Assembly: GCF_024055795.1 (NCBI RefSeq)
Contig: NZ_JAMXMY010000016.1
Span: 1 to 64,000, forward strand
Length of the DNA stretch: 64,000 nt
Source of the DNA: Actinoallomurus purpureus
Lineage (GTDB): Bacteria; Actinomycetota; Actinomycetes; Streptosporangiales; Streptosporangiaceae
Reading direction: 5' to 3'
Every line of letters starts with the position of its first letter. Position 1 is the stretch's first letter. The notes beneath the pieces are model-generated. The model searched no databases. It saw only the letters and a list, made by a program, of their open reading frames with translations, and was not told the origin of the DNA. Made by a program: the position numbers and the translations under genes. This document shows positions 1 through 2,534 of this stretch, in pieces.

Positions 1-70
1 CCCGTCATTACTGTCGACGCACGTGAGCGTGGGGGACTGGCCTATGGCACAAGCCAGGGAAAAGCTGCGG

Positions 71-661
71 CTACGTTTTCGCCATTGCTTCTCCACTTCT
101 GACGGTGCGACTTCGTGTCGCACGCTGGGAGGTGTAGGCCGGGTCCACCTCCAGGAACGGCACCCCGGCCCGCAGGGCCTTGTACTGGATGAAGGTGCCG
201 AGCTGGTGGAACGGCCAGGTAGAGAGCGTGGCCCGCTGGTGCCGCCTGAGCCGTACCCGATCGCGTATCCCACTGAGTTCCTCCAGTGCGATACCGCGTT
301 CGGTGCGTCGGGCATCGGCCACGATCTGCTTACTGATCTTGTGGTTCTCGTCTGTGGCGTGGCGGGCCTCCCGTTGTGATCGGCGGGCCAGACGGCGGGC
401 GGCCGACCGGCTCCCGGCGGCTTTCTTGGCCTGCAGTTCGGCGCGTAGCCGGGCTTGGCGCCGGCGATACCGCTGCAGGGCCTTGCCTTGGTGGTTGTCT
501 CCATCGGAGGTGGTGGCCAGGTTCACGATCCCCCGATCCACCCCGATCCAATCGGTGGGCTCGACCTGGGGGGCCTGCTCGACCTCACACGTCGCGGTCA
601 GCAAGAACATCCCGTCGCGACGCACCAGATCGGTCTCGCCCTTGCGGTGGGCCGCCAGGAA
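71..661 (-). pseudogene. TnpB remnant (IS200/IS605-family RNA-guided nuclease)
   Basis: Broken tnpB, the accessory RNA-guided nuclease gene of IS200/IS605 elements. The frame runs from about 661 down to a stop at 71; a GTG at 625 lies inside it. It keeps the RuvC-I block (DWIGVDRG, first catalytic Asp) and the RuvC-II block (GIALEELSG, catalytic Glu). It diverges right after Y-T-S-Q, where intact proteins carry the four-cysteine zinc finger and the third RuvC Asp; neither is visible in any frame. The N-terminal half is missing and family-like sequence begins abruptly at base 661, where the oppositely oriented tnpA remnant also begins. It is therefore judged inactive. Confidence 0.8.
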
Positions 662-933
662 CCGACTTCGGTGCCGAACTCGCCGAGTTCAACGGCGGAA
701 CCGACCACGTCCACCTGCTCGTGCACTACCCGCCCAAGATCGCCCTGTCCTGCCTGGTCAACAGCCTCAAAGGCGTCTCCTCCCGCCACCTCAGACAGGA
801 ACACCACGCCCACCTGTCGAAATACCTGTCGGGCGGACACCTGTGGTCCCCGTCCTACCTCGCCGCCTCCAGCGGCGGCGCACCCCTGGCGATCATCGCC
901 GAATACATCGACAACCAGAAACGACCCAACTGA
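661..933 (+). pseudogene. TnpA remnant (IS200/IS605 Y1 HUH transposase)
   Basis: C-terminal part of a Y1 transposase, the single-strand cutting and rejoining enzyme of IS200/IS605 elements. The frame shows the metal-binding HUH motif (DHVHLLVHYPP) and the helix with the catalytic tyrosine (AEYIDNQKRP), ending with a stop at 933. The first 40-50 residues are missing: homology starts at about base 661-664 (DFGAELAEF) with no start codon or ribosome-binding site. Divergent tnpA/tnpB order is known in IS605 itself, so one deletion spanning the shared promoter and both 5' ends explains the two fragments. Confidence 0.8.
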
Positions 934-976
934 CCAACCGCTCAGGCGGCGCTAGCGCGCCGCGCACAACAGAAAC

Positions 977-1016
977 GATTCCTCCCGGCCCTGAAGCTGA
1001 AGGGCCGGGATTCCTC
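977..1016 (+). repeat. IS605-type terminal stem-loop
   Basis: A 9-bp perfect stem (984-992 with 1001-1009, 8-nt loop) is flanked by two copies of GATTCCTC (977-984 and 1009-1016). It lies 40 bp after the tnpA remnant, where IS200/IS605 elements carry the subterminal hairpin recognised by TnpA. It marks the right edge of the degraded element. Confidence 0.6.
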
Positions 1017-1053
1017 GCTAGAAGCCAGTTGAACGGCTCCGGCCCGCCGCTCG

Positions 1054-1305
1054 TCAGGTCGGCCACGACGTGGAACTGTGCGAGCTGAAGGAACTGAACG
1101 CCGAGTGCCGGCTGTGTGAGCTGAACGAACTGAAGAGCTGACCCAGCGGTGATCCCTCGGCGGTGATGTCCCGGCTCGAGCGGTAGAGGTCGTTCAGCAT
1201 CTGACCGAGTGCCGTTCCGTCCAGCGCCTCGATGCCGGCGAGATCGAGGTCGGGCAGATTCAGGTCGAGCTCCGGGCTTTCCTGGTCGTCCTGGTCGTCG
1301 CTCAT
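1054..1305 (-). CDS. Putative RiPP precursor with Phe/His-Ser-X triad repeat (FxSxx-like leader)
   Basis: An 83-residue protein. The ATG at 1305 is chosen over longer in-frame starts because GGAAGGA lies about 10 bases upstream and the acidic N-terminus begins there. Residues 1-50 are acidic and leader-like (PELDLNLPDLDLAGIEALDG), resembling as I recall them the leaders of FxSxx-COOH peptides, which are substrates of radical-SAM/SPASM maturases. Residues 58-81 are eight consecutive triads with Ser second: first positions F58, F61, H64, H67, F70, F73, H76 and T79. The DNA shows an internal duplication of the F-S-S-F-S-S-H-S unit. There is no Cys and no TM segment. Aromatic-X-X triads are the substrate form of cyclophane-forming (triceptide) radical-SAM enzymes. 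No maturase is in the window; one could lie left of base 1, beyond the IS remnant. A non-RiPP low-complexity protein is the alternative. Confidence 0.6.
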   Translation of the reverse strand: MSDDQDDQESPELDLNLPDLDLAGIEALDGTALGQMLNDLYRSSRDITAEGSPLGQLFSSFSSHSRHSAFSSFSSHSSTSWPT

Positions 1306-1529: not shown

Positions 1530-2534
1530 GTGACGACGTCACAGACGGACCTGAGAAAGACCCTCGGATGGTACGCCTTCGCGTTGGCTAGTGTGATCAC
1601 GCTGGGCGGAGGATTACTGCTCGCGCTGAGCGACCGCGCTCTCACCGGAACGGCGCTGATGTCCGCGATCGGCGTCAACCTGATCGCGTCGGTCGCCTTC
1701 GCCGTCGTGTTCTCCACCCTCAGCAGCCGGCTCCAGGAACGCGGACTGCACGAGGCCCTCGGCGAGCGTGTCGATCAGCTTTCGCGGTCGCTCTTCCAGG
1801 AGATCGCCGAGACCAACCAGACCTACCTGCCGGTCGCCACTTACCCTCCGCTCGATCCGGTGTCCGGATACGGCGATCAGTTCAACGTCGACATGACGCA
1901 CAGCCTGGAGGGCACGAGCTTCTACGCCTTCCGGGGGCCGAGCCCGAGGTACGTCGTGGCGCGGCTGCGCTGCGCCCGCCGACCGCCGCAGCAGGTCCGG
2001 GTCGTGTCCATGAGCCCGGGTGACCAGCGCGCCATCGCCCGGCGGGCCTCCGACCGGCGGCAGTGGGTGCGGCAGCAGGGCAAGGACCTGCCGACGCTCG
2101 AACGGGAACTCCGCCAAGAGCTGATCCGGAACATCGTCGTGCTCTTCGATTACCGCCGCGTCTGCCCCGTGGACCTTGCCTATATCGAGGACACCGCGGT
2201 CTATCGCTTCGAGATGTTCGATGACTCGATGTACCTCTCCTGGTTCCACGGGCCACGGTCGGCCGCCAGGGAGATGCCGGAGTCATTCCGATTCGGCGCT
2301 GAATCGATGGTGTACCGGATCATGCGTCAAGATCTGATGCGGAAGTTCGAGATCGCGCCGATCCACGTGCGATTCGATGCCGGCCAGGACGACGAATTCC
2401 TGGTCGCGCATCTGGAGGAACTCCTGGGCGAGCCCGTCACCGGAGACGACCTACGTCGCTGGCGCGAAGGTTACGACGCCTACGTCGCCGACTTCACCGA
2501 ATATCTGGGAGACCTCTACCGAAGGCTGGACTGA
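1530..2534 (+). CDS. Two-TM membrane protein of unknown function
   Basis: A 334-residue protein with a GTG start at 1530 and GGCGAGGAGG upstream. Two adjacent TM helices (about 13-33 and 42-64) form a hairpin, followed by a short coiled segment (SSRLQERGLHEALGERVDQL) and a roughly 240-residue soluble domain rich in Arg, Asp and aromatics. I recognise no catalytic motif. The gene is divergent from the triad-repeat precursor with a shared 224-bp intergenic region, so co-regulation is possible. Its last 19 bases overlap the convergent cupin-like gene. Confidence 0.75.
   Translation: MTTSQTDLRKTLGWYAFALASVITLGGGLLLALSDRALTGTALMSAIGVNLIASVAFAVVFSTLSSRLQERGLHEALGERVDQLSRSLFQEIAETNQTYLPVATYPPLDPVSGYGDQFNVDMTHSLEGTSFYAFRGPSPRYVVARLRCARRPPQQVRVVSMSPGDQRAIARRASDRRQWVRQQGKDLPTLERELRQELIRNIVVLFDYRRVCPVDLAYIEDTAVYRFEMFDDSMYLSWFHGPRSAAREMPESFRFGAESMVYRIMRQDLMRKFEIAPIHVRFDAGQDDEFLVAHLEELLGEPVTGDDLRRWREGYDAYVADFTEYLGDLYRRLD

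Follow-up and report, generated by a model that had tools for sequence, protein, structure and literature searches.

The window, a stretch of 64,000 nucleotides, lies at the very start of contig C7 of the source genome. Its first ~1,030 bases are filled by an IS200/IS605-type element, and beside it on the minus strand lies a small gene of the FxsA type. The features of this region are as follows.

1..123, minus strand: 5' end of a group II intron (GTGCGAC) within tnpB; the contig ends inside it, and an identical copy is at the end of contig C11
124..625, minus strand: TnpB of the IS605-type element, N-terminally truncated, with the group II intron inside (NF040570, 128 bits)
665..933, plus strand: truncated IS200/IS605 TnpA, C-terminal part (PF01797, E=6e-25; NF033573, E=2.6e-24)
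975..1018, no strand assigned: GC-rich hairpin, approximate end of the IS605-type element, beside the fxsB break
1031..1066, minus strand: first 12 codons of fxsB (VADLTSGGPEPF), whose GTG overlaps the fxsA stop as in Sphaerisporangium rufum; compared with L063 ..GCCGAGCCGTTCCGGTCGTTCATCTGC
1054..1305, minus strand: gene for an fxsA-type precursor of 83 aa (ATG at 1305), in which the array comes after an acidic leader (residues 1-57); based on the ORF and seven homologues
1072..1134, minus strand: predicted core, seven aromatic triads FSS FSS HSR HSA FSS FSS HSS (residues 58-78)
1054..1071, minus strand: C-terminal tail TSWPT and stop

The ORF from 1305 to 1054 encodes MSDDQDDQESPELDLNLPDLDLAGIEALDGTALGQMLNDLYRSSRDITAEGSPLGQLFSSFSSHSRHSAFSSFSSHSSTSWPT, and a ribosome-binding-like site, GGAAGGA, lies 5' of its ATG. 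Coordinates, strand and residues 58-81 agree exactly with the initial annotation. That annotation counted eight triads; seven are aromatic (residues 58-78), whereas the eighth is T-S-W. When the last 30 residues were shuffled with their composition kept, a run of seven triads arose in 6 of 200,000 shuffles. The DNA duplication that had been pointed out is present in weak form, as two 24-nt FSSFSSHS units identical at 21 of 24 bases, and a repeat search with a 9-base seed did not report it. Because its three differences are all synonymous, a recent duplication is unnecessary as an explanation, and the proposed recent expansion of the core was not borne out. Divergent from fxsA, positions 1530-2534 (plus strand) encode a 334-aa protein without any Pfam or NCBIfam match, whose N-terminal stretch looks membrane-spanning.

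Homologous precursors with the same leader and 6-20 triads were found in seven relatives, counted by genome: one Sphaerisporangium, two Nonomuraea, three Streptomyces and one Nocardia, that is, five named genomes plus G168 (Nonomuraea) and G811. The gene had been put forward as a candidate triceptide/FxS precursor, an idea to be abandoned if homologues lacked the triads and never occurred near a radical-SAM gene. The opposite was found in 7/7: every homologue keeps the triads and immediately precedes the gene of an intact FxsB radical-SAM/SPASM maturase. The two closest FxsBs in a survey of 299 genomes of the family (83 and 80% identity over the fragment that remains in the source genome) are encoded by full-length genes with a homologous precursor directly 5'. 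In a scan of named genomes, five FxsBs showed at least 73% identity and the next dropped to 49%; each of these five, from S. rufum, Streptomyces ipomoeae, S. laculatispora, Nonomuraea typhae and Nocardia bovistercoris, is immediately preceded by an array precursor. The arrays of S. rufum, N. typhae and S. laculatispora count 11, 10 and 6 triads. In a tree of FxsBs, those of six relatives group with the remnant from the source genome in one clade (SH-aLRT 100). The FxsB of G811, found later and outside this tree, shares 76% identity with the S. rufum enzyme.

A profile search detected the array precursor in 4 of 343 genomes of the family, the source genome included, and in 1 of 394 genomes of the genus of G057, which we take to be Streptomyces; among 397 genomes of the phylum there was no other genuine match. 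It was absent at 75 more distant FxsB-like loci and, within narrower flanking DNA, at 27 further FxsB loci of the family. No clade member was present in a plasmid collection, where every match was below 60% identity. The clade has few members, scattered across three actinobacterial families, which suggests horizontal transfer. Two kinds of array-like sequence were set aside. The low-scoring runs in L056-L060 and L062, from other genomes of the family and phylum, consist mostly of FSA, FSV, YAE and FSS, belong to different proteins and have no FxsB-like protein beside them; an HGC run near FxsB in L084 is an opposite-strand frame that does not look like a gene. At L083, L084, L088 and L095, the ORFs just 5' of Streptomyces scabiei-type FxsBs each terminate in one ..EFES(S/T).. 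motif, and it is possible that they are one-core precursors.

Triads were tallied over the window precursor and six relatives. The third residue of the 52 Phe triads is Ser in 50 and Ala in 2, and the second is Ser, Asp, Asn or Gly. All 26 His triads have Ser second, with Ser, Arg, Ala or Gln third. The initial description of the array as triads with Ser in second position thus suits the His triads (26/26), but the informative register of the Phe triads is F-x-S (50/52). The array closes with a Trp triad in four of these precursors. The 42 FSS triads are spelled in 11 ways at the DNA level, using both Ser codon boxes, which suggests conserved residues and not newly duplicated DNA. Selection on the triad residues would explain the arrays better than slippage.

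Does this gene belong to a known class of precursors? With the FxSxx-COOH model TIGR04268 the window precursor scores 12 bits, under the cut-off of 28, and the relatives' precursors are also under it (best 19.7 bits). It ends in TSWPT, not in Phe-x-Ser-x-x-COOH; that of S. rufum ends in TSWAT and most others have WSG(R), the termini among the relatives being TSWAT, WSGR(A/G/V) and WSR. Because both the model cut-off and the C-terminal motif are missed, filing it as an FxSxx-COOH peptide is inappropriate; it is a variant that has a tandem core and an FxsB clade to itself. The likeness to the FxSxx-COOH (FxsA)/FxsB systems (TIGR04268/TIGR04269) lies in an FxsB-family maturase directly downstream (intact in all seven relatives, a split remnant here), an acidic leader with a similar DLD..AL..L pattern, and the F-x-S motif. 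The differences are 6-20 consecutive triads where those systems have one FxSxx at the C-terminus, the presence of His and Trp triads among those of Phe, and a separate FxsB clade. As in triceptides, the core carries aromatic-x-x motifs beside a 3-CyFE-type radical-SAM enzyme. The evidence supports the assignment of the window gene as an FxsA-type, triceptide-like precursor, and the earlier interpretation holds in kind. A literature search, whose coverage excluded most chemistry journals, returned no description of the array variant.

The likely chemistry can be read from related enzymes. We take the InterPro entry of MscB to correspond to FxsB. MscB links Phe C4 to the Ser beta-carbon at an F-x-S motif, HaaB links His to Ala (His-x-Ala) and YhhB links His to Arg (His-x-Arg) (PMC11002830). 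Triads of the His-x-Arg and His-x-Ala types occur in the arrays, as in the YhhB and HaaB/ScaB triceptides with their His/Tyr motifs (PMC11002830), whereas here Phe-Ser triads dominate and the array is long; with the YhhB model the FxsBs of the array clade score 373-391 bits, under the cut-off of 445. The H(Y)NR repeat peptides of rSAM Cluster 41 (PMC9062424) are alike in motifs and enzyme types, with repeated aromatic-x-x triads that mix Tyr and His, and a radical-SAM enzyme together with an aKG/Fe oxidase, but their third residue is Arg and they have about three triads.

A second enzyme accompanies FxsB. In five relatives the gene directly downstream of fxsB encodes a protein, ~900-1,000 residues long, that contains an aKG-HExxH peptide beta-hydroxylase domain (110-123 bits with TIGR04267; cut-off 40), and in G811 a homologue (61% identity) follows FxsB. 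This neighbour was thus seen in 6/6 relatives with readable downstream DNA; the S. laculatispora contig ends too early. The motif HE(Y/H)GH was confirmed in the two HExxH proteins that were read. PMC12636437 cites a HExxH-family enzyme whose hydroxylation of Asp and His requires that the peptide already contain a cyclophane. The fused radical-SAM and aKG-HExxH proteins ChlB/ChlH, cited in the same paper, resemble the present system in that cyclophane formation precedes HExxH beta-hydroxylation of His and Asp; here, in contrast, each enzyme has its own gene and the core consists of tandem triads.

In the source genome the maturase gene is broken. The initial annotation saw no maturase in the window, which is broadly correct, except that the first ~12 codons of fxsB are present (1066-1031, minus strand); the search beyond the window for a radical-SAM/SPASM gene, which it had proposed, found a split fxsB remnant on contig C52. 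Over the whole genome, the family-model search detected four FxsB genes, of which three are complete and one survives as a fragment where C52 begins. Reading inward from that contig end, one meets the 3' end of a group II intron, the remaining part of tnpB, fxsB codons ~14-102 and then a deletion that reaches into the HExxH gene. The TnpB of the window stops 123 bases from the contig end, at GTGCGAC, the consensus start of group II introns. Bases 1-126 of C52 end in the intron 3' end (RF00029 at L004:50-126, 62.6 bits, E=4.9e-11), and the match stops one base before the coding sequence of exon 2. Virtual splicing of C7 to C52:127 onward puts TnpB in frame across its zinc-finger motif (VDPAYTSQ-QCPVPWCGH). 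A second intron copy has its 5' part at the end of C11 and its 3' part at the start of C3, and the alternative contig pairing also splices in frame; the intron alone therefore does not fix the C7-C52 junction.

The two halves of fxsB do so. Overlapping the fxsA stop and running on past it, C7 reads GTG GCC GAC ... CCG GAG CCG TTC and C52 continues TCG TTC ATC TGC AAG, whereas the intact fxsB of S. rufum reads GCC GAG CCG TTC CGG TCG TTC ATC TGC AAG across the break. The halves match this reading, which places fxsA, the IS element and fxsB in that order on one strand; synteny of fxsB and fxsA is what decides the C7-C52 adjacency deduced here. The fxsB remainder (C52:398-664) corresponds to residues 14-102 of S. 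rufum FxsB with 83% identity and is fused directly, with a frameshift, to residues 37-149 of the downstream HExxH protein; beyond these, nothing more of the cluster was found on C52. The remnant scores 121 bits as a fragment, over residues 1-84 of the TIGR04269 model. With fxsB split and the deletion reaching into the HExxH gene, the maturase and its partner are destroyed and fxsA is left an orphan. Judged from the assembled sequence, the cluster is a relic in the source genome.

The two intron copies (window 1-123/C52:1-126 and C11:1001965-1002087/C3:1-126) both cause contig breaks and allow the contigs to be ordered, C7 with C52 and so C11 with C3. Because they sit at an identical codon position (..YTSQ|Q) in two distinct tnpB genes, site-specific targeting of tnpB by the group II intron is suggested.

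Several other explanations of the precursor have to be weighed. Membership in the His-Xaa-Ser (HxsA/HxsB/HxsC) systems, instead of FxsA, is hardly credible. Those systems also have multi-copy three-residue repeats with His and Ser, and HxsA-type models match the repeat weakly (E 0.0013 to 0.9), but no match reaches the cut-off (14-19 bits, where TIGR03979 requires 122), all are composition-driven, and Phe is the first residue of most triads. The candidacy was rejected on the identity of the maturase, which is FxsB, not HxsB: with the FxsB model TIGR04269 (cut-off 370), the enzymes adjacent to the arrays reach 433 bits in S. rufum and 425 bits in Nonomuraea (G168), versus 61 and 55 bits, against 370, with the HxsB model. 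That the array is a Ser-rich low-complexity tail or repeat protein and not a modified peptide is a little less remote and still very improbable. The strict linkage of the array to one FxsB clade, the conserved leader, the constrained third positions of the triads and the mixed synonymous codons all speak against it, although the composition of the repeat is biased and spurious FSA/FSV/YAE repeats occur in other genomes.

It is also unlikely, though less so than either of these, that the precursor still works and is matured in trans by another FxsB of the source genome, of which three are intact. All three full genes score above the cut-off, and the precursor gene keeps an intact ORF and ribosome-binding site. 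Against this, all three fall outside the array clade, one of them, among the matches listed, is 55% identical to the remnant over 93 residues, the two precursors of the FxSxx model in this genome have no arrays, and arrays were found only with the dedicated FxsB clade.

The reading that we prefer, and regard as very likely, is an FxsA/triceptide-type RiPP precursor with a tandem core, which would be cross-linked in the relatives and was orphaned here by insertion of the IS605-type element and deletion. As inferred from sequence, the steps may run as follows. The dedicated radical-SAM/SPASM enzyme of the FxsB clade would bind the acidic leader and, in successive triads, connect the ring of Phe, His or Trp in first position with the beta-carbon of Ser, Arg, Ala or Gln in third position. 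Each link would lose 2 Da, yielding a string of three-residue cyclophanes, and the adjacent aKG-HExxH enzyme would then probably beta-hydroxylate residues of the cross-linked peptide. In the source genome, the IS605-type element with its group II intron split fxsB at about codon 13, and a deletion took out most of fxsB and most of the HExxH gene, so no cognate enzyme matures the precursor. It is conceivable, although we lean somewhat against it, that a single FxsB clade works along up to 20 contiguous Phe/His/Trp triads to give a rod-like, HExxH-hydroxylated poly-cyclophane, built of tandem three-residue rings that differ in ring chemistry, whose length is set by genetic copy number.

Two more FxSxx-type precursors above the model cut-off are present in the source genome, at C11:324108-324233 and C11:580975-581103 (L011, L012). 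One has a classic FxSxx-COOH terminus, FNSTV, and the protein encoded after it resembles AAA/STAND proteins (read by eye); the second terminates in LWHMPSDTGDV and so lacks an FxSxx terminus. FxSxx peptides have been placed with actinobacterial conflict systems (Kaur et al., PMC7159879). A TPR/AAA-type protein follows the array cluster of N. typhae (L066:8676-11127); in Nocardia, the protein ahead of the cluster (L067:60-3092) has WD40 repeats and, as read by eye, a TIR-like N-terminus. These neighbours are in line with the link to conflict systems, a context that is not common to all relatives.

The window captures the decay of a cluster, in which a mobile element within a mobile element splits the maturase while the precursor stays intact. 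If the arrays of the relatives are fully cross-linked, the FxsB clade would tolerate Phe, His and Trp rings and repeat its reaction 6-20 times per peptide. If so, these arrays, which occur in nature in several lengths, would form a natural experiment on how processive cyclophane-forming radical-SAM enzymes are and which rings they tolerate.
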